A stretch of DNA of 64,000 nucleotides from Synechococcus sp. MEDNS5 (GTDB lineage Bacteria; Cyanobacteriota; Cyanobacteriia; PCC-6307; Cyanobiaceae), in NCBI RefSeq assembly GCF_014279875.1, contig NZ_CP047952.1, forward strand, positions 930,001 to 994,000. The letters run 5' to 3'. Shown one piece after another: positions 4,246 through 43,053 of this stretch. Within the stretch, counting starts at the first letter, position 1, and every line of letters starts with the position of its first letter. Below the pieces are notes generated by a model. It was not told the origin of the DNA. It searched no databases and saw only the letters and a program-made list of their open reading frames with translations. The position numbers were made by a program, and so were the translations under genes.

Positions 4246-4499
4246 CGGCCTTCGCAGTGTTCGACTGCTTTGAGGTAGTGCAGTTGGCCGGGGCTGTTCC
4301 GATTTCCAGGGTTGATTGCCTGTCGCATGCTGATCTGAACATCAACACAACGGTTATAACGGTGCATCTTCACGGCCTGTGGGATCAACAAGACGGCGAT
4401 TGCCAGAAGGCTGAGGCTGCTGATGGCGGCCAGCAGCGGAACCGCATGAGCCCGCACCATCTCCAGAGCCGGTAACTGCTGTTGGCTGTGGTCGTTCAT
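4242..4499 (-). CDS. Hypothetical small membrane protein
   Basis: An 85-residue protein with one clear membrane helix (HAVPLLAAISSLSLLAIAVLLIP, about 18-40) followed by a soluble tail with two cysteines (NRCVDVQI and AVEHCEG). The family is not recognised. It is the first gene of the minus-strand trio ending at 3746, and its stop overlaps the DUF3721 start. The topology suggests a short C-terminal domain outside the membrane that could hold a disulfide. Confidence 0.5.
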   Translation of the reverse strand: MNDHSQQQLPALEMVRAHAVPLLAAISSLSLLAIAVLLIPQAVKMHRYNRCVDVQISMRQAINPGNRNSPGQLHYLKAVEHCEGR

Positions 4500-35346: not shown

Positions 35347-36327
35347 ATGAGCTTCGCCAAGAAGGCTCTCATTTTTTCCTCTTTGCTGGCTCTTGGAGCC
35401 GGCGTTTCCGCTTCTGCCGCTGATCGTCTGAACGGCGCTGGTGCGTCTTTCCCCGCCAAGATCTATCAGCGCTGGTTCGCTGAGCTGGCCAAGGCCGGTG
35501 GTCCTCAGGTCAACTATCAAGCTGTTGGATCCGGTTCCGGTCGTAAGGCTTTCATCGACCAGACCGTGAACTTCGGTGCTTCTGATGATCCGATGAAGCC
35601 CAAGGACATGGCCAAGGTGAAGCGCGGTGTGGTGCAGATCCCCATGGTGGGTGGCACCATCGCCTTCGGTTACAACAAGCCCGGCTGCAACCTCAAGCTG
35701 ACCCAAAAGCAGGCTGTTCAGGTGGCGATCGGCAAGATCACCAACTGGAAGCAGCTTGGTTGCGCCCCCGGCAACATCACCTGGGTGCACCGTTCCGACG
35801 GTTCCGGCACCACCAAGGCCTTCACCAACTCCATGCAGGCCTTCTCTTCCGAGTGGACCCTGGGCACCGGCAAGTCTGTCAAGTGGCCCGGTAAGAACGC
35901 TGTGGGTGCCAAGGGCAACTCCGGCGTCGCTGGCACCATTCAGAACAAGGTTGGCGCCATCGGTTACGTCAACCAGTCCTACATCAAGGGCAATGTTGTT
36001 GCTGCTGCATTGCAGAACAAGTCTGGTGAATACCTCAAGCCCTCTGTGAAGGCTGGTGCCACCGCGCTGAACGGCATCAAGCTTGATTCCAACCTGGCTG
36101 GCAAGAACCCCAACCCTTCCGCCAAGGGTGCTTATCCCATCGCCACCCTCACTTGGGTGCTGGCTTACAAGACCGGCAACGGCAAGAACACCGATGCCAT
36201 CAAGGAAGCCTTCAACTTCATGCTGAGCGACAAGGCCCAGAACCAGGCCCCCAAGCTCGGCTTTGTTCCTCTGAAAGGCGGCATCCTCAGCAAGGCCAAG
36301 GCTGCTGTGAACAAGATCGGCAAGTGA
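35347..36327 (+). CDS. pstS: Phosphate ABC transporter substrate-binding protein
   Basis: PstS captures phosphate in the periplasm for the Pst importer. The 326-residue protein has a signal peptide (KKALIFSSLLALGAGVSASA, cut at residue 24 or so). The mature part begins DRLNGAGASFPAKIYQRWF, and the phosphate-site segments are QAVGSGSGRKAFI, FGASDDPM and WVHRSDGSGTTKAF. It is preceded by a Pho box and followed by a strong terminator, so it is a single-gene unit. Genes for PstA, PstB and PstC are not in the window. Confidence 0.95.
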   Translation: MSFAKKALIFSSLLALGAGVSASAADRLNGAGASFPAKIYQRWFAELAKAGGPQVNYQAVGSGSGRKAFIDQTVNFGASDDPMKPKDMAKVKRGVVQIPMVGGTIAFGYNKPGCNLKLTQKQAVQVAIGKITNWKQLGCAPGNITWVHRSDGSGTTKAFTNSMQAFSSEWTLGTGKSVKWPGKNAVGAKGNSGVAGTIQNKVGAIGYVNQSYIKGNVVAAALQNKSGEYLKPSVKAGATALNGIKLDSNLAGKNPNPSAKGAYPIATLTWVLAYKTGNGKNTDAIKEAFNFMLSDKAQNQAPKLGFVPLKGGILSKAKAAVNKIGK

Positions 36328-36360
36328 TTCTTTGAATCACCTTCACTGATCGGATGAACG

Positions 36361-36385
36361 AGGAGGGGGCAACCCCTCCTTTTTC
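36361..36385 (+). terminator. Strong rho-independent terminator of pstS
   Basis: AGGAGGGG, a short loop, CCCCTCCT and then TTTTT form a perfect 8-bp GC-rich stem with a T-run, 33 bases after the pstS stop. It should stop the highly expressed pstS mRNA before the regulator gene. Confidence 0.85.
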
Positions 36386-36499
36386 ATGTTTCCTTTATCT
36401 TTCTGATTTTTTAGGAGAGCCTTAAAGCACTGATCCCCATCTCTTTGCCTGCGAGGGATGTTGTGCTCCATACACTTTGTTGTATCGAGAGCTTCAGCC

Positions 36500-37132
36500 A
36501 TGGTCTCTGCTCCTCAGTCCGCTTCCAGCCGTCGTGACGGCTTTCTTGAGCTTCTGGAGAACAGTTTTCAGAAGCGCAATCTCGTGCATCTTTCCGCGGG
36601 AAGTGTGGTGCCATTGCTCAAGAACAGCCTTTGGCTGGTGGTGAGAGGCATGGTGAAGCTCGGTGCTGTTTCCGTTCATGGTGACGAGCTTTTGCTGGGC
36701 CTGGCCGGACCGAATGAGCCGTTCGGTGAACCTCTGAGCACCGTTGAGGCCTATGAAGCCGTCACTCTCACGGATTGTGATCTCCTTTGCGTGACGATGG
36801 CGGAAGTTGGCGAATCGTCAGATCTGGCCAGAGCACTTCTCGATGCTGTTGTTCTGCGCTACAGGCAATCGGAATATCTGCTCTCGCTTCTTGGCTTACG
36901 CCGCGTTGAAGAACGGGTTCGCGGCTTTCTTGAATTGCTGGCTCAGGATTACGGTCAGCCCTGTGATGAAGGATTGCGCCTGAATCTTCGTCTGACCCAT
37001 CAGGAAATGGCGAGCGCCTTGAGCACCACACGCGTAACGGTGACTCGCGTGATCGGCCTTCTCAGGGATGAGGGTTGGCTCAAGATTGACGCCCATCGCC
37101 ACCTTGTGATCACCCATCTTCCCAAGAAATAA
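36500..37132 (+). CDS. ptrA: CRP/FNR family regulator, PtrA-like
   Basis: A 210-residue transcription factor. The N-terminal cNMP-type sensor barrel runs from about residue 10 to 110 (NLVHLSAGSVVPLLKNSLWLVVRGMVKLG). The C-terminal winged helix-turn-helix has LTHQEMASALSTTRVTVTRVIGLLRDEGW. Known cyclic-nucleotide contact residues are not obvious, so the ligand is open. In marine Synechococcus the CRP-family regulator PtrA lies next to pstS and acts in phosphate stress; position and domain match, so the name is offered by context. ATG 36500 is preferred (MVSAPQSASSRRD). Confidence 0.75.
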   Translation: MVSAPQSASSRRDGFLELLENSFQKRNLVHLSAGSVVPLLKNSLWLVVRGMVKLGAVSVHGDELLLGLAGPNEPFGEPLSTVEAYEAVTLTDCDLLCVTMAEVGESSDLARALLDAVVLRYRQSEYLLSLLGLRRVEERVRGFLELLAQDYGQPCDEGLRLNLRLTHQEMASALSTTRVTVTRVIGLLRDEGWLKIDAHRHLVITHLPKK

Positions 37133-37191
37133 ATCATCGGGATTGTCAGGCCCAGGGAGTCTCCCTAGAAAAGACCTGATGGCTCAAAGCT

Positions 37192-37458
37192 TTGGCTGAT
37201 TCCTTGTTTCCTTTGGTTCTGTTGGCCCTTCATGCAGTGCAGGGCTATTGGTATGCAGGCCTGTTGATTGCCATTCTGTTCTCACTGTTTGGTGTGCAGG
37301 CGATTGATCCGTCTGCCAAAGGGTGGTCTCACCCCCTGTTCCGATTGGTGATCATTCCCGGCGTGTCACTGTTCTGGCCGCTTCTGCTTGTGCGCTGGTT
37401 GCGCCGTCAGGGGCCACCGCGGGAGCGCAATGCCCATCGCCTTGCTTTGCGGTCATGA
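37192..37458 (+). CDS. Small membrane protein, first gene of a redox operon
   Basis: An 88-residue protein with two membrane helices (YWYAGLLIAILFSLFGVQAI and LFRLVIIPGVSLFWPLLLV) and a basic C-terminus (RWLRRQGPPRERNAHR). No family is recognised. The start is uncertain: TTG 37192 or TTG 37204. Its stop overlaps the next ATG in ATGA (37455-37458), tying it to the three genes downstream. Confidence 0.55.
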   Translation: MADSLFPLVLLALHAVQGYWYAGLLIAILFSLFGVQAIDPSAKGWSHPLFRLVIIPGVSLFWPLLLVRWLRRQGPPRERNAHRLALRS

Positions 37459-37967
37459 TTCGATCCCATCGCATCACGCACAGGCGGCTGTTTCCGCTGA
37501 TTGCGGTTCTTGCACTTGTGCTGTCTGTTTCGGCTTTGGCTCTCCGTCCGGCTGTCCCCGTTTCGTCCTCTGAATCAGCCCCGCTATATCAGTCACTCGG
37601 TTTTTCAACTGCGTCGCTTTCGGCTTCCAGAAGCGTTCGGGTCAAGGTGAATGGACGTCCCGTTCTGCTCGGTTATCAAGAGGCATCATCGGCTCAGCCA
37701 ACGCTGTTGATCCAACCCCAGCAAATTCAACCCGAGGCCCAGGTGCAGGTCTTGTGGACCAGCGGCGATGTCTCTGATGAAACTCTCCCTTCGGCGGTGT
37801 TTCTCGGTGAGCTTTCTGGCGAATCGGCCCTTGCCTTGCCTTTGCCAAGTGAATTTTCCCCTGATCGCCCCGGCCAGCTTCTGTTCCGCAGCCTTCCTTT
37901 GGCCAAAACCCTTGGATCCGTTGATCTGGCAGCGCTTCCTTCCAACCTGTTTCAGGAGAGTCGCTGA
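37455..37967 (+). CDS. Exported or membrane-anchored hypothetical protein
   Basis: A 170-residue protein. A basic start (MIRSHRITHRR) and a helix (LFPLIAVLALVLSVSALAL, about 12-30) act as a signal anchor; the rest is a periplasmic domain of beta strands (SRSVRVKVNGRPVLLGY, AQVQVLWTSGDVSDETLP). No cysteines or metal motifs are seen in the soluble part. It is coupled to the upstream gene by a 4-base overlap and is followed by the Rieske fusion gene 2 bases later. Role unknown. Confidence 0.6.
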   Translation: MIRSHRITHRRLFPLIAVLALVLSVSALALRPAVPVSSSESAPLYQSLGFSTASLSASRSVRVKVNGRPVLLGYQEASSAQPTLLIQPQQIQPEAQVQVLWTSGDVSDETLPSAVFLGELSGESALALPLPSEFSPDRPGQLLFRSLPLAKTLGSVDLAALPSNLFQESR

Positions 37968-37969
37968 TC

Positions 37970-39079
37970 ATGGGTCATCCCTATCAAGCCGTTCAGTGGA
38001 CCCGTAAGAAACTGATTTACGACGGCATTCTTCTTGCCCTGGTGATGGGCTATCTGCTGGTGTTCACCCAGATCACCTATGCATTGAATCGTGCTGTTGG
38101 TTCCGTTGCTGAATGGGAAGGGGTCGAAATCAGGGCTTATGGAAGCGCCGCCTTCATCCTTCTGAGCATCATCCTCTGCATCGGTCCCCTCAGTCGTTTG
38201 AACAAGCGTTTTCACGTGCTGCTGTTTAACCGGCGACACATGGGTGTTCTCGCTTTTCTGCTGGCACTGTTTCATGTGCATGGCTTCCGTTTGCCAGCTC
38301 AACCTTTTCAAGCCCTCGGACTGTCTGTTCCCAAAATTCCTTTTCAGTTCTTTGGTGCCCTGCCCTGGTACAACGATTTCGGCGATCTCGATCCCCTTGT
38401 GTCCCTTTTCGTGGGGAATCGCCATTTCGACAGTCTCACCTTTTTCCCGTTTGAACTTCTCGGGCTTGGGGCTCTGCTGGTGATGTTCGTGATGGCGGCC
38501 ACCAGCCACGACTTCTGGCTTGTGAATCTCACCCCGCCGATCTGGAAGGGAATTCACATGGCTGTGTATGTCGCCTATGCATTGCTTGTCGGACACATCC
38601 TCCTTGGTCCTCTTCAGACCAACCGTGACCCTTGGCTAACGGCGCTGGCTCTGGTGTCGTTCGTGTGCGTGATCGGGCTCCATCTCATCAGTGGCTGGCG
38701 GGAACGCAAGGCCGATCGGTCCCTTGATTCCTCACCGGATGCTTTCGCTGTGGAGGGGTTTGTGGATGTGATGGCGCTCGATGATCTTGACGACGAGTGC
38801 GGCACACCGGTGGTGATCCGCGGTGAGCGTGTCGCCCTGTTCCGTCAGGGCGATGCGGTCTACGCCCTCAGTAATGTCTGCGCCCATCAGAACGGCCCTC
38901 TGGCCGACGGTCGCCTCAGCCATGGCTGTGTGGTGTGTCCATGGCATGGCTGGGAGTACCGCGCTGAAACCGGTGTTTCCCCACCCCCGTTTGCCGAACG
39001 TGTACCGGTGTTCCCCGTTCGCATTCAAGAGGGCCGGGTGTATGTGGCGCTCCAGCCCGTTCTCAATGCAGTGAGTTGA
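37970..39079 (+). CDS. Ferric-reductase-like membrane domain fused to a Rieske [2Fe-2S] domain
   Basis: A 369-residue fusion. The N-terminal two thirds hold six membrane helices (from LIYDGILLALVMGYLLVF to ALVSFVCVIGLHLI) with histidines placed for heme binding in the helix pairs: His90, His102/104, His196 and His209, the arrangement of the ferric-reductase/MsrQ membrane fold. The C-terminus (about 280-360) is a Rieske domain: CAHQNGP (Cys304, His306) and CPWHGWEY (Cys323, His326). Electrons could pass between a Rieske cluster and membrane hemes. No FAD/NADPH domain is present, so it is not a normal NADPH oxidase. The partner and substrate are unknown. Confidence 0.8.
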   Translation: MGHPYQAVQWTRKKLIYDGILLALVMGYLLVFTQITYALNRAVGSVAEWEGVEIRAYGSAAFILLSIILCIGPLSRLNKRFHVLLFNRRHMGVLAFLLALFHVHGFRLPAQPFQALGLSVPKIPFQFFGALPWYNDFGDLDPLVSLFVGNRHFDSLTFFPFELLGLGALLVMFVMAATSHDFWLVNLTPPIWKGIHMAVYVAYALLVGHILLGPLQTNRDPWLTALALVSFVCVIGLHLISGWRERKADRSLDSSPDAFAVEGFVDVMALDDLDDECGTPVVIRGERVALFRQGDAVYALSNVCAHQNGPLADGRLSHGCVVCPWHGWEYRAETGVSPPPFAERVPVFPVRIQEGRVYVALQPVLNAVS

Positions 39080-39084
39080 TCGTC

Positions 39085-39843
39085 ATGTCACAGCGCAATA
39101 CACCCTTCTTTGTTCATTACCTGCCACTGCCGCCAGAGCTGCGTGCCTTTGTGATTTGGCTTGTGTTCGGCCTCAGTGTTCTCACGTTGATTCTTTCGAT
39201 TGTGGTTCCGGCCCTGCAGGACCAGTTCGGCCCTGGCTGGCGGCAACCAACCCGGGAGATCAGTGGGCTGCTCCTCGATGGTCCTGGTGCACCGCAAGTG
39301 CTGATCCCGAGGCCTGATGGGGAAGGCGAGACTGCCTATTCCAGGGTTCTTCTCGCCAGCACCCGTAAGCTCGCCCCCCCTGCATCGGTGATGGATAAGA
39401 CCGGTGAGTGGGTGAAACTTCGCGGCGCCCTGTTTTCGAATGGCACTCTGACGGTGATGAATACCAATCGCGCCGGGGTCCTGGATGCACCCCTTTCGGA
39501 CCAACCGGTTCCCACCGAGCCGAATTCCCTGGGGACCTTCGCGCTCAAAGGCGAGATCATCGACGCCAAATGTTTTTCCGGTGTGATGAAACCCGGTGCT
39601 GGTAAGACCCACCTCGGTTGTGCCGTCCGCTGCATTAGTGGAGGAGTGCCAGCCATGTTCCATACCCGCAATGCACAGGGACAGGAACTGGATCTTCTGC
39701 TTGTTGATGAGAAGGGTGATGCTGTCAACGACAGAGTGCTTGATCGCGTTGCCCTGCCTTTGGAGATCCGCGGGGAAGTGCTGAAGTTGAATGATCTCCT
39801 GTTACTGCGTGCCGACCCATCCACATACCGCTCGCTGCTCTGA
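39085..39843 (+). CDS. Membrane-anchored protein with a conserved Cys/His motif
   Basis: A 252-residue protein with one membrane helix (FVIWLVFGLSVLTLILSIVVP, about 22-42) and a periplasmic or cytoplasmic domain. Its striking part is KCFSGVMKPGAGKTHLGCAV followed by RCISGGVPAMF, giving Cys163-x12-His176-x2-Cys179-x3-Cys183, a possible metal- or cofactor-binding cluster. The family is not named here. ATG 39085 is preferred to TTG 39076. It is the last gene of the operon and follows the Rieske fusion by 5 bases, so it is probably its functional partner. Confidence 0.65.
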   Translation: MSQRNTPFFVHYLPLPPELRAFVIWLVFGLSVLTLILSIVVPALQDQFGPGWRQPTREISGLLLDGPGAPQVLIPRPDGEGETAYSRVLLASTRKLAPPASVMDKTGEWVKLRGALFSNGTLTVMNTNRAGVLDAPLSDQPVPTEPNSLGTFALKGEIIDAKCFSGVMKPGAGKTHLGCAVRCISGGVPAMFHTRNAQGQELDLLLVDEKGDAVNDRVLDRVALPLEIRGEVLKLNDLLLLRADPSTYRSLL

Positions 39844-39876
39844 ACGTCTTCGTTGTTTCGTCTATCCATTGAGTTC

Positions 39877-40875
39877 ATGCTTTCTCCCCAGCTCGAGGTT
39901 CTTTTCTCGCGATCTCTGGCATCACTTCGCCCGGTGATCGTTTCGTTCCTGATCGTTCATGCCATGAGTCTCAGTGGCGGACTCGATCAGGCGTTATCGC
40001 CCTGCAACGTGCTGTTGGTCGGTAATTTCTGCGCCGCGATGCTCGTGCTGACCTTGTTCAAACCGGCATCGATTCTGAGGGAGATTTCTGAGCTGCCCTG
40101 GTCGATCAAAGGCTTGATGCTTCTGGATGGTGCTCTGACAGCCCTGATCTCGGCATTGATTTTCACTGGACTTGAATACACCACTGCCAGCAACGCCATC
40201 CTCATCGGCCGCATGGCCCCGGTTCTGTACGCGTTGATTGGTGCCCTTGCTCTGGGAACCGTGTTGGCAAGGCCTGTCTGGATTGGCAATGGCTTCATCA
40301 TTGTCGGCGTGTTGATGATTGTGTTGTTCAGTACCGGTGGCAATGTGAACAAAGGCGATGCGATGATGATTGCCTCCACATTTGTCTTTTCGATTGTTTC
40401 AATTATCGGCAAAAAGCTTGTCGCAAGAAAAATTTCGATGCCTGTGTTGCTCTTCGCTAGGAATCTATCGGGGAGTGTGATTTTCTTCTTCGTTGCGATA
40501 TATCTGTTCGGTGTTCATCACTTCGCGGATGTTTTCGCTGGCTCGTTATGGATGGTGATGGTGGTCTATGCCGGCTTAATCATCGTTGTGTCCCAATGGC
40601 TTTGGTATAAAGCGTCTGCCGAGTTGAGCTCTGTGAGCATGGGACGTTGGGCTTCGCCTGCCCCGCTTGTAGGCCTCACTTTTGCCTACTTTGTGAATAA
40701 CAACATCCCCGACAGCAAGCAGTTAATCGCTGGGGTTGTGATTCTGGTGGGGATTGCCATCACCACCTTCGGTAAGCCAGCGCCCGGGACGCAAGTCGCT
40801 GAGGACAAGCGTGAAACCAGCAGCAAGGCTGATCTCTTGATGCAGGGGGACAACGTCGTTTCGCCGTCCGTATGA
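39877..40875 (+). CDS. EamA/DMT family transporter
   Basis: A 332-residue protein with ten predicted membrane helices in two EamA repeats (GLMLLDGALTALISALIFTG and IASTFVFSIVSIIGKKLV). DMT proteins export or import amino acids, nucleotide sugars and other small solutes. The tail from about 300 on (KPAPGTQVAEDKRETSS) is soluble. ATG 39877 is favoured over TTG 39853. Its stop overlaps the next ATG (ATGA, 40872-40875), so it forms an operon with the ATP-grasp/GNAT and dioxygenase-like genes and may export their product. Confidence 0.8.
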   Translation: MLSPQLEVLFSRSLASLRPVIVSFLIVHAMSLSGGLDQALSPCNVLLVGNFCAAMLVLTLFKPASILREISELPWSIKGLMLLDGALTALISALIFTGLEYTTASNAILIGRMAPVLYALIGALALGTVLARPVWIGNGFIIVGVLMIVLFSTGGNVNKGDAMMIASTFVFSIVSIIGKKLVARKISMPVLLFARNLSGSVIFFFVAIYLFGVHHFADVFAGSLWMVMVVYAGLIIVVSQWLWYKASAELSSVSMGRWASPAPLVGLTFAYFVNNNIPDSKQLIAGVVILVGIAITTFGKPAPGTQVAEDKRETSSKADLLMQGDNVVSPSV

Positions 40876-41183
40876 CGGTGGGCATTGGTGTGATCTGCGA
40901 TGCCCTGGCCTATCGCGATCAGCCCGGATCTGACGTGATCCGCTTCTATCAGGCCTTGGCCAGAGATCAGGCGTTTGAGTCGTTTCACCTCCCTCTGCCC
41001 GCCCTGCGAGCGTCATTGGAAACAGGCGACTCAGGCAGGCTTTCTGCTCTTCGCCTCAGCGACCGAGCTGCGGCCAGCCTCTGGACGGCGGAGCCTCAAA
41101 GCGCTCTGCAGCTCCTGCCTGCAGAGCGCTTTGACCTGCTGTTCTGTAGAACGCTGAAGCCTTTTCCCCCCCGTCACCTCTAA
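40872..41183 (+). pseudogene. GSH-synthetase-like ATP-grasp/GNAT protein, N-terminal part (in-frame TAA)
   Basis: The first 103 residues of a larger protein. They form a small alpha/beta domain like the N-terminal part of glutathione synthetase-type ATP-grasp proteins (MTVGIGVICDALAYRDQPGS; FDLLFCRTLKPFPPRHL). TAA 41181-41183 stops the frame, but the next 398 codons in the same frame continue the protein (LLRQLEPLTRFLNRPSSKI), which carries the catalytic domains. GAA, CAA or AAA changed by one base would explain the stop. The ATG at 40872 overlaps the transporter stop. Confidence 0.75.
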
Positions 41184-42380
41184 TTGCTGCGGCAGCTTGA
41201 GCCATTGACGCGCTTTCTGAACCGGCCCTCCAGCAAGATCCGGCAGCTGGCTTCTTGGTTCCTGGCTGATATCGCTGGATCCTTCACCCCACCATCACGG
41301 TTGATCCGCTCGTCTGAGGCCCTTGCTGAAGTTCTTGATCTCTGGGGAGACGTCGTGATCAAGCGACCGAACAGCACCCAAGGCCGAGGTGTATCCCGCT
41401 TGCGTCGATCCGGTCGGGCTGTGCAGTTGAGTCAGGGGTTGCGCGAGGTCGAGACCTTTCCCTCTCTGGAACCTGTCATGGGCTTGATCGGTGATGTCTC
41501 CGAGGAATGGTTGGTCATGCCGTTTCTCTCTGGCACTTGCAAGGGCGACAAACGCGTTCTGGTGGTGGATGGGGAGGTCATCGCCGGGTATCGCCGTCGC
41601 TCGAGGAGTGGTCACTGGATCAACAATGTGTCCTTTGATGCCGCTTGTGAACTGGAAGCGGTCTCGGAGGACGAGCGTTGCGTCGTTGCATCCACGGCTC
41701 CGTCGTATCGATCGATGGGGATGCGGGTGCTTGGTTACGACTTTCTCACTGGTGACAGGGGAGAGCCCGTGGTGAGCGAGATCAATGTGGGCAACATTGG
41801 CGGTTTTTCAAGGGTGACTGACCTGGGTGGTCCAGATGCCATGCAGCAATTGTTGGGGTGGATGCGGCTTTTCGGTCAGTCCGAAGGCGACCTGTTGATC
41901 GAGTCAGCCCAGACTCACCATGCAGCAGCGATGGCAGCGATCTACCAGCAGTCGGTTGACCAGGGCGGCGTCACCATGGACGCCGGCTTGATCACGGCAG
42001 AGTCCTTTCGGCAGCGGTTGAGCGCCTGCGGCGAGAGGTCTGGCTTTTGGGTGCTCACACTTGGAGGGGAGGTGCTGGGGTGGACGGAGTTGCGAGCCTA
42101 TTCGCCGCGCTGGGGTTATCGCTTCACGGCAGAAACATCAACCTATGTGCATGCGTCTGCACGGGGAAGGGGATTGGGTTCCAAGCTTCAGGGTTTTGTG
42201 ATTGGTCAAGCACGAGAGATGCGTTACAGACATTTGGTGGCCAAAGTTGTGTCCAAGAATGACCAGAGTGTGGCGTTTCACTTGAGGCATGGCTTTGAGC
42301 ATGTCGGCATTCAGAAAGAGGTGGGATTTCTTGGGAATTCGTGGCACGATGTTGTGATCCTTCAGTGCTTGTTGGTCTGA
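41184..42380 (+). pseudogene. ATP-grasp domain fused to a GNAT acetyltransferase (after the TAA)
   Basis: The rest of the same gene; the open frame begins directly after the TAA. Residues 1-240 of this part form the ATP-grasp fold: the linker NRPSSKIRQLASW, the phosphate loop KRPNSTQGRGVSRL, GDKRVLVVDGEVIAG and the Mg site SEINVGNIGGFSRV, resembling glutathione synthetase. The last 150 residues are a GNAT domain with the acetyl-CoA loop ASARGRGLGSKL and an ending FHLRHGFEHVGIQKEVGF like that of phosphinothricin-type N-acetyltransferases. Together the fusion could ligate an amino acid and acetylate it. Without the first 103 residues and with only weak starts, function is doubtful unless the stop is an error. 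Confidence 0.75.
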
Positions 42381-42381
42381 G

Positions 42382-43053
42382 ATGGCTGTGCCTGGATCAG
42401 TGCTTGGCATGTCTTGGCGTCTGCAAGCGCTGATTGCATCAATTGGTGAGCAGCCCCCCTCGAGCCTTGCCCGTCTCGAGCGTTCTGTCGCTGATGCTGG
42501 ACTTATTGAGCAGGATCTCCTGCCATGGGCAGATTTCAGCCACCCGGTTGAAGATAGTTACGGGCGGCGATTGATCTGGAAATCTGATTTTGTTGAGCTC
42601 ATGGTTATGAGCTGGATCCCTGGAGATTTTAGTGCGATTCATGATCATGGAACGGCCCACTGGGGGGTAGTCCAGTCTTTTGGACCTGCAACGCATTCGC
42701 TGTTTAGGCTGAATGGATCCCAACTTGAATTTGATCGCCAGAGTGATTACAAGCCTGGTCAGATTCAAACGGTGGATCATCGGCTGATCCATCAGATGGG
42801 CAATGCCAGTGGGCGAGCTTTTGTAAGCTTGCATCTCTATGCGGCTCTCCAGCCACTGGCCACAATCACCGCCAATGCCCGTGTGTTTGATGTGGTGGAA
42901 GGGGTGATCCAGTTCACTGATGGGGGTGTGTTCTTTGCCTTGCCTGATCGTCAGGTGAAACGTCAGCTCACGGGACTGAAGGCCAATCCATCGCTCATCT
43001 CCCATCAACGTCGGTTGCGGGATGCGCGTCTGCACGTGATGGCCCAGGCCTGA
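42382..43053 (+). CDS. Cysteine-dioxygenase-like cupin protein
   Basis: A 223-residue protein of the cysteine dioxygenase family, iron enzymes that oxidise a thiol to a sulfinate. The likely iron ligands are His87 and His89 in AIHDHGTAHWG and His137 in LIHQMGN, the spacing of the family. The mammalian Cys-Tyr crosslink cysteine is absent, as in many bacterial members, so the substrate could be another thiol such as 3-mercaptopropionate. The start lies one base after the ATP-grasp/GNAT stop, giving a three-gene operon. Confidence 0.8.
   Translation: MAVPGSVLGMSWRLQALIASIGEQPPSSLARLERSVADAGLIEQDLLPWADFSHPVEDSYGRRLIWKSDFVELMVMSWIPGDFSAIHDHGTAHWGVVQSFGPATHSLFRLNGSQLEFDRQSDYKPGQIQTVDHRLIHQMGNASGRAFVSLHLYAALQPLATITANARVFDVVEGVIQFTDGGVFFALPDRQVKRQLTGLKANPSLISHQRRLRDARLHVMAQA

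Follow-up and report, generated by a model that had tools for sequence, protein, structure and literature searches.

Four touching or overlapping genes in a 64,000-nucleotide stretch of the Synechococcus sp. MEDNS5 genome (the window, to which positions without a locus name refer) probably encode a membrane complex that would carry electrons outward across the cytoplasmic membrane, from a Rieske iron–sulphur domain through two hemes b to a metal site in a membrane-anchored partner protein. We hold this reading with moderate confidence. The genes are here called g1 to g4; the host genome, which measures 2.44 Mb, is close to Synechococcus WH7803, and the two g3 sequences share 96% identity.

All four genes are open reading frames (ORFs) on the forward strand. 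The first, g1 (37192..37458), begins at a TTG codon and encodes an 88-residue membrane protein with two hydrophobic stretches; g2 (37455..37967) encodes a membrane-anchored protein of 170 residues, g3 (37970..39079) a 369-residue fusion of an FRD cytochrome b with a Rieske domain, and g4 (39085..39843), counted from the ATG at 39085, a protein of 252 residues in which a membrane anchor precedes two predicted OB-like domains. The ORF coordinates agree with the sequence-only reading of this DNA, which had described genes starting at 37192, 37455, 37970 and 39085 as overlapping or nearly touching: g1 and g2 share 4 bases, and gaps of 2 and 5 bases separate g2 from g3 and g3 from g4. A sigma-70 scan of 36300–39950 found no promoter-like site. 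The ratio of non-synonymous to synonymous substitution rates (dN/dS) for g1 to g4 was 0.13, 0.24, 0.067 and 0.098 against one relative (locus L002) and 0.20, 0.18, 0.057 and 0.060 against another (L003). Values of 0.057–0.24 against two relatives argue that all four are real genes and point to purifying selection on each.

The gene order was followed in other genomes by two routes. A first scan with g3 as the query kept 80 of 399 relatives, comprising 34 full-type loci, one Patescibacteria locus (L035) and 45 loci with the Rieske part only; some of the 34 are cut by contig ends, with g3 lost in L034 and g4 in L006. A g4 profile was then searched against 1455 genomes (386 cyanobacterial, 345 Bacteroidota, 246 Planctomycetota, 299 Pseudomonadota and 179 Acidobacteriota), the four non-cyanobacterial samples being named after the phylum of their centre locus. 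All five samples include their centre genomes, which were chosen for having the operon. The 34 full-type loci, four Rhizobium plasmid loci and 52 loci from genomes make up the 90 loci tabulated here, L035 being left out.

Full-length g4 was found 56 times, in 5 cyanobacterial, 12 Bacteroidota, 17 Planctomycetota, 7 Pseudomonadota and 15 Acidobacteriota genomes; shorter matches to its C-terminal part alone are common, and these, among them G904 and G249, are left out of this count. The g3 gene lies adjacent on the same strand in all 51 fetched loci, and the other five cases, the window and the genomes of L019, L021, L029 and L030, have the same arrangement. A g1 gene was found in 49 of the 51, and the two exceptions (L197 and L244) are cut by contig ends. 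The g1–g4 order is thus kept in five phyla, every full-length g4 has g3 beside it or fused to it, and the possibility that these genes are never conserved together does not hold.

In 9 of the 90 loci (5 Bacteroidota, 2 Acidobacteriota and 2 Planctomycetota) g3 and g4 form a single polypeptide. On a g3 tree built from the 86 of 90 rows that exceed 300 residues, the fusion state changed at least 4 times. Such repeated fusion is good evidence that the two proteins work together.

The g3 protein matches PF01794 Ferric_reduct (E 2.5e-13, 50.6 bits against a cut-off of 28) and PF00355 Rieske (E 4.2e-15, 55.9 bits). In Pfam and NCBIfam only Rieske and FRD families reach their cut-offs, and no flavin adenine dinucleotide (FAD) or NAD(P)H domain was found in g3. 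These matches and the model of a homologue described below confirm a six-helix ferric-reductase-like domain fused to a Rieske domain with no FAD/NADPH part. In an alignment of 90 rows (89 from loci and the window; L035 left out), the Rieske ligands C304, H306, C323 and H326 are present in every row, as are H180, H196 and H209. H90 occurs in 87 rows and H102 in 89, the remaining rows being gaps in cut or split ORFs, and H238 occurs in 88 of the 90. A loss of heme histidines among homologues, which would count against an electron path, is therefore not seen: H90, H102, H196 and H209 stand in every ungapped row.

The FRD survey places four histidines in transmembrane helices 3 and 5 (TM3 and TM5), where they bind two hemes, and in the same account YedZ/STEAP proteins have an arginine in place of the first (PMC3591440). 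The g3 protein has six transmembrane helices and keeps all four canonical histidines, two in TM3 and two in TM5. It is predicted to hold two hemes, an inner heme b on H90/H196 and an outer heme b on H102/H209. Its Rieske part shows the C-x-H ... C-x2-H ligands and the Rieske fold.

A model of a natural g3–g4 fusion from L025 (predicted local distance difference test score (pLDDT) 84.2, predicted template modelling score 0.82) starts with six long helices; the Rieske domain comes next, then a seventh helix and finally two beta domains. Its membrane part aligns with STEAP1, STEAP4 and NOX5 with Z about 14 and root-mean-square deviations (rmsd) of 4.0–4.4 over 190–236 residues, to be read against the Z of ~13 that helical bundles reach without kinship; a profile made from the FRD alignment and run against solved structures found nothing at E <= 10. 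The Rieske part aligns with BphA3 (Z 15.6, rmsd 1.9, 105 residues), and as modelled it is a Rieske domain of the cytosolic dioxygenase-ferredoxin (BphA3) type. A relationship with cytochromes bc or b6f is not favoured, as the best Rieske matches are BphA3-type and the membrane part matches PF01794 rather than a bc-type cytochrome b. We also rejected a Rieske non-heme iron oxygenase: g3 ends soon after the Rieske domain, and Pfam gave no match to a mononuclear-iron catalytic domain. Separately, the Patescibacteria locus encodes an FRD-Rieske protein of 442 residues (L035:6743–8071), with neither g1 nor g4 in the 15 kb examined; it possibly represents a second FRD-Rieske lineage.

The second OB-like domain of g4 bears C163-x12-H176-x2-C179-x3-C183. 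A membrane anchor and this motif had been noted from the sequence, and both hold up: the exact motif is present in 87 of 89 g4 ORFs, and the two that lack it (L004 and L013) run into contig ends. D160, K162, M168 and P170 are invariant in alignments A1 and A3. Pfam gave only a sub-threshold CcmD match for g4 (E 0.29). Its AlphaFold2 model (mean pLDDT 88.6) shows one long N-terminal helix and two beta-rich domains. The structural neighbours of the first are OB folds of the NlpE/potempin type (Z 7.4–7.9, 77–80 residues, identity 9–11%), which it resembles in fold only, and a Z under 8 may reflect no more than a common arrangement. We call the second domain OB-like from its modelled strand order, which the structure search barely tested.

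The g4 profile also found 21 stand-alone proteins that it matches over its C-terminal part only (E 3e-23 to 2e-10). They share the pattern G-E-I/V-x-D-x-x-C ... H-x2-C-x3-C, which g4 itself fits, and most of them start, by eye, with signal-like sequences. In the Pseudomonadota sample such proteins occur in 5 of 7 genomes with g4, against 2 of the 292 without it (Fisher p 2e-8, a significance that kinship probably exaggerates). In Acidobacteriota 2 of the 15 g4 genomes have one, and in the Planctomycetota and Bacteroidota match lists stand-alone OB proteins and g4 do not overlap. Around the secreted stand-alone proteins of Pseudomonadota, a gene of the SCO1/SenC blast cluster lies in 5 of 7 loci (L300–L304; without it in L298 and L299), Pfam-confirmed in L301 and with a C-x3-C-P motif seen in L300 and L304; for L298 and L302 the OB ORF itself is missing from the gene listing used. 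SCO1 is a copper protein, and the presence of its relatives here makes copper a candidate for the metal of g4. In Bacteroidota, no shared partner of note emerged from the genes around stand-alone OB proteins at five loci.

The two small proteins are less easily placed. Neither g1 nor g2 matches a Pfam family at E <= 1, and g1 has no NCBIfam match either. The g1 sequence keeps a D-x-A ... FR ... PG ... LWP pattern, and of the 91 loci in the g3 cluster 84 also contain a member of the g1 homologue cluster. The g2 protein has an N-terminal basic/His motif, one hydrophobic helix and a domain of ~110 residues that is probably extracytoplasmic. In other phyla its slot often holds a short form of about 37–60 residues. 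Inspection by eye found a co-directional small ORF in this slot, which lies between g1 and g3, in loci from each of the five phyla. The ORF has the basic/His N-terminal pattern and the hydrophobic helix, and in cyanobacteria and some others also the extra ~110-residue domain; not every ORF listed in the slot is convincing. The recurrence of the slot ORF in all five phyla means that g2 probably belongs to the conserved gene set.

In the path that we propose, a cytosolic reductant would reduce the Rieske [2Fe-2S] domain of g3. The electron would then pass to the inner and on to the outer heme b, and from there to a metal centre in the second OB-like domain of g4 (C163, H176, C179, C183 and perhaps M168), from which it would leave for a further acceptor outside; g1 and g2 would be small membrane subunits. 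If the seventh helix between the Rieske and OB domains spans the membrane, the two lie on opposite sides of it. The signal-like N-termini of the stand-alone OB relatives would place the OB domains outside and the Rieske domain inside, and with that arrangement the path crosses the membrane. Arginines and lysines of g3 at the N-terminus (12–14) and in the 2–3 loop (76–89) fit the positive-inside rule. We infer, with the models as a guide, that the Rieske domain is cytosolic and the OB domains of g4 are extracytoplasmic. The sequence-only reading had proposed a periplasmic or membrane electron path between an unnamed donor and acceptor; the membrane path stands, refined to one that would cross the membrane, and candidate donors can now be named.

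These candidates are encoded close by in other loci, though not beside the copy in the window. A Rieske domain fused to a flavoenzyme-type domain was found near g1–g4 in 32 of the 90 loci, about a third, from all five phyla, with L007 the only cyanobacterial case. Three types recur: glutamate synthase (GltS) in 23 loci, a thiamine pyrophosphate (TPP) enzyme closest to pyruvate oxidase in 14, and a type resembling NADPH-dependent flavin mononucleotide (FMN) reductases in 9. The Rieske-GltS family has the FMN-barrel region and an invariant C-x5-C-x4-C, which we take to be a 3Fe-4S site. On the g3 tree the GltS neighbour changed state 14 times, the TPP neighbour 11 times and the FMN-reductase neighbour 3 times, numbers inflated by short contigs scored as absent; the association with g3 thus arose or was lost repeatedly. 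Among 246 planctomycete genomes, 19 have Rieske-GltS, 18 have g4 (counting a fragment in G904) and 8 have both, against about 1.4 expected (odds ratio 15.8, Fisher p 7e-6, uncorrected for kinship). These neighbourhoods suggest that the Rieske-tagged flavoenzymes are interchangeable cytosolic donors. We tentatively extend this to a general scheme, in which such enzymes would dock on one Rieske-cytochrome b subunit, with the Rieske domain as the common plug, and so reduce a new extracytoplasmic OB-like metalloprotein with a three-cysteine, one-histidine site, perhaps a copper site. As a separate observation, on the strand opposite to g1 and 1.7 kb upstream of it, L012:2507–4258 encodes an FMN-reductase domain fused to a region with a weak ATP-grasp-like match.

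Several observations weigh against the proposed path or its donors. Foldseek with g4 returned no solved relative at E <= 0.001, the g4 profile had no match among solved chains at E <= 10, and the metal is a guess from the putative ligands. In the stretches examined, 58 of the 90 loci have no Rieske-tagged enzyme. Among planctomycetes 11 of the 19 genomes with Rieske-GltS lack g4, which indicates that Rieske-GltS has other partners, and in 2 of the 8 genomes with both (G923 and G954) the two genes lie on different contigs or far apart. In G904 a C-terminal g4 fragment, a decayed or misassembled copy, stands beside Rieske-GltS (L286:7676–8083), and no g3 was found in 14 kb. Of the three types, Rieske-GltS and Rieske-TPP were looked for in the host genome and both are absent from it; the matches there are a 1539-residue GltB-like ORF and TPP-enzyme ORFs, both without a Rieske part. 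The donor in this organism is therefore probably a ferredoxin or flavoprotein encoded elsewhere. In the 10 loci fetched from the 11 planctomycete genomes that have Rieske-GltS without g4 (L287–L296), the stretch around this gene gave no g1, FRD or g4 match; there the enzyme has the C-x5-C-x4-C motif and no glutaminase domain match, and belongs to a wider orphan family.

The alternative that survives best, although we consider it unlikely, is a STEAP/FRE-like metal reductase serving iron or copper uptake, in which g3 would reduce ferric or cupric ions, free or held by g4, ahead of an importer. The structural match of the FRD part to STEAP metalloreductases is in its favour, as are the SCO1/SenC-type genes near the stand-alone OB relatives and a sub-threshold ZIP-like match in L007; in addition, a 2021 eLife survey of flavinylated systems ties some MsrQ-like clusters to the iron transporter VIT1 in one of its passages (PMC8238504). 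However, no metal importer was found among the annotated neighbour genes, some recurring neighbour clusters being left unannotated, and the recurring neighbours in cyanobacteria are instead an EamA-family protein, an ATP-grasp/GNAT protein and a thiol-dioxygenase-like cupin. Nor would a reductase of free ions need a partner with so tightly conserved a Cys-His-Cys-Cys (CHCC) site.

The donors could also be read in reverse. Against outward transport, g4 would oxidise a substrate outside and the hemes would hand the electrons on to the Rieske domain, where they would power reductions in the cytosol, for instance reductive amination by Rieske-GltS. Canonical GltS consumes electrons, and Rieske-GltS keeps both its FMN-barrel region and the invariant cysteines, as inward flow would have it. 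The other recurring Rieske-tagged enzymes belong to pyruvate-oxidase-like and FMN-reductase-like families, which release electrons. The authors of the flavinylation survey allow, in a passage on such systems, that flow is reversible in principle (PMC8238504), whereas the FRD survey, where it treats function, describes the superfamily as reducing outward (PMC3591440). On balance we regard inward flow as improbable, and retain outward transport as the preferred direction.

The genes downstream of g4 bear on a third alternative. The sequence-only reading drew the boundary after four genes, which is too narrow for this lineage: here the unit comprises seven co-directional genes. An EamA-family transporter gene (39853..40875, forward strand; PF00892, E 3.3e-18), probably encoding a small-molecule exporter, follows g4 after 9 bases. 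It overlaps by 4 bases a gene for an ATP-grasp protein of the glutathione-synthetase/RimK-like kind joined to GNAT (40872..42380, forward strand), after which, 1 base further on, the last gene encodes a cysteine-dioxygenase-like cupin (42382..43053, forward strand). Homologues of the EamA, ATP-grasp/GNAT and cupin genes follow g4 in 12, 12 and 9 loci respectively, every one of them from cyanobacteria. An intact ATP-grasp/GNAT homologue (L002:9903–11411) has GSH-S_ATP, RimK and Acetyltransf matches, and the cupin homologue L002:11413–12084 matches PF05995 CDO_I (E 3.3e-8). The window copy of the ATP-grasp/GNAT gene contains an in-frame stop at 41181–41183, either a recent loss or a sequencing error; copies in L002, L003 and L245–L248 are uninterrupted.

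In another genome of the genus (G082, locus L276; PtrA 94% identical), the equivalent of window positions 37475–42788 is missing, with a scar at about 4302–4310. A single stretch has gone, and with it g2, g3, g4, the EamA and ATP-grasp/GNAT genes and the greater part of the cupin gene. What remains is the g1 region and the final ~80 residues of the cupin, so this is a loss and not an empty site. On the g3 tree the 24 cyanobacterial rows form one clade (98/94), with the 8 rows of the window's family as a clade within it (100/99). A recent acquisition by the genus is not favoured, given the single cyanobacterial clade and the deletion scar. Full-length g3 is present in 7 of 200 genomes of the order.

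Other neighbours recur outside the cyanobacteria. OlsB-like (5 loci) and/or OlsA-like (7 loci) acyltransferase genes lie near g4 in L197, L198, L207, L219, L238, L239, L241 and L242, assignments that fall below NCBIfam cut-offs and were annotated in L197 and extended to the others by cluster. Those loci, from Bacteroidota, Acidobacteriota and Planctomycetota, often encode a large protein as well; the one in L197 matches alpha/beta-hydrolase and VTT families and, weakly, ATP-grasp. The loci possibly encode an amino-acid lipid pathway. A set of DinB-like, TANGO2-like and weakly ATP-grasp-like genes recurs near g3–g4 in L024, L025, L052, L201 and L235, Pfam-checked in L025 and L235 and assigned by blast clustering in the rest.

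From such neighbours one can construct an extracytoplasmic modifying enzyme, with g3 feeding a catalytic g4 that acts on an exported product of the ATP-grasp and acyltransferase enzymes, a lipid or a small thiol or peptide. The recurrence of ATP-grasp/GNAT with EamA and the cupin in cyanobacteria, the acyltransferase loci and the removal of g2 to most of the cupin gene as one stretch in L276 would all suit it. Elsewhere, in loci with sequence enough to tell (L008, L011, L016 and L033, for example), intact g1, g3 and g4 stand without those neighbours downstream, and we know of no catalytic family among OB folds with CHCC sites. This explanation seems to us improbable, and we retain electron transfer to g4 for a further acceptor.

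Upstream of g1 lie two phosphate-related genes outside the conserved module, pstS (35347..36327, forward strand; PF12849, E 2.4e-34), for a phosphate-binding protein, and ptrA (36458..37132, forward strand), for a CRP/FNR-type phosphate-stress regulator (NCBIfam equivalog NF053664, 353 bits against a cut-off of 300). The sequence-only reading had thought a stress link possible from their position. The regulator is genuine and ends 59 bases before g1. A terminator-like hairpin lies between pstS and ptrA (36360–36385). The interval from ptrA to g1 yielded no such site, which makes read-through possible in the WH7803 lineage. In WH8102 PtrA is described as a PhoBR-controlled regulator of severe phosphorus stress in the relevant part of one study (PMC11098088). 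Yet the operon and ptrA occur apart. Of 23 genomes of the genus, 18 carry ptrA at E <= 1e-30; g3 was looked for in 14 of those 18, and 4 have a full-length copy and 10 lack one. A pstS-ptrA pair without g3 and g4 is seen in L276–L279, in G012 and G018 (same genus, other operon lineage) the contig coordinates place ptrA over 1 Mb from g3, and among 42 loci scanned ptrA matches were confined to L002, L003 and L082–L084. We therefore rejected a PtrA/phosphate operon as the general function, and a phosphate-starvation module under PtrA control, for all its proximity to the regulator, is very improbable. The link is positional and limited to one picocyanobacterial lineage, and phosphate control is at most a local regulatory capture.

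If outward transport is right, five phyla, including some marine Synechococcus, share an unrecognised trans-membrane electron route in which no NADPH/FAD module is fused to the heme protein. Orphan Rieske fusions of glutamate synthase, pyruvate-oxidase-like enzymes and FMN reductase would be explained as donors to one membrane subunit, and secreted OB-like proteins with a conserved Cys/His site would gain a first testable role. The gene set is compact and has natural single-chain g3–g4 versions, and is directly expressible and measurable.

In the literature searched we found no account of the g1–g4 set, the OB partner or the Rieske-tagged donors, which is in keeping with the earlier description, upheld by the domains found, of an uncharacterised membrane redox operon. 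The FRD-Rieske architecture appeared only in the FRD survey by Zhang et al. (2013), where the legend of Figure 3 lists Rieske (and FMN) as domains of architecture M4; section 12 of that survey is silent on its gene neighbourhood and function and on any g4 partner or donor set (PMC3591440). The 2021 survey includes, in the part concerned, MsrQ-like conduits with other partners (PMC8238504), and a passage of a further paper mentions a different Rieske gene, beside a guanidine cluster (PMC10119275). In PMC5676040 the word Rieske turned up solely as an author's name in the reference list.

The closest known systems include MsrPQ, the periplasmic methionine sulfoxide reductase system, and MsrQ-like flavinylation clusters (PMC8238504): MsrQ (YedZ) is likewise a six-helix PF01794 cytochrome b that sends electrons through the membrane, and its extracytoplasmic partner is likewise a dedicated one with a neighbouring gene. 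Unlike MsrQ, g3 keeps H90 (in 87 of 87 ungapped rows; arginine in YedZ), bears a Rieske domain and scores 32.9 bits against the NCBIfam cut-off of 130. The partner of g3 is also of another kind, an OB-like protein with a CHCC site where those systems have MsrP or an FMN-binding protein. Neither the periplasmic molybdoenzyme MsrP nor an ApbE/FMN-binding extracytoplasmic protein was found among the annotated neighbours, where no MsrP-specific or ApbE/FMN_bind search was made. With BphA3-type Rieske ferredoxins g3 shares the Rieske fold and ligands; its Rieske domain is, in contrast to theirs, fused to a membrane cytochrome, and no ring-hydroxylating oxygenase was found among the annotated neighbours. 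NOX, FRE and STEAP proteins share the FRD domain and, in the long forms, the four transmembrane histidines. They differ in that g3 has a Rieske ferredoxin domain in place of the C-terminal FAD and NADPH domains of the NOX/FRE long forms, and a dedicated membrane-anchored OB-like partner. The g3 protein is a member of the FRD superfamily that would work like MsrQ, STEAP or NOX while standing outside both MsrQ and the NOX/FRE long forms.

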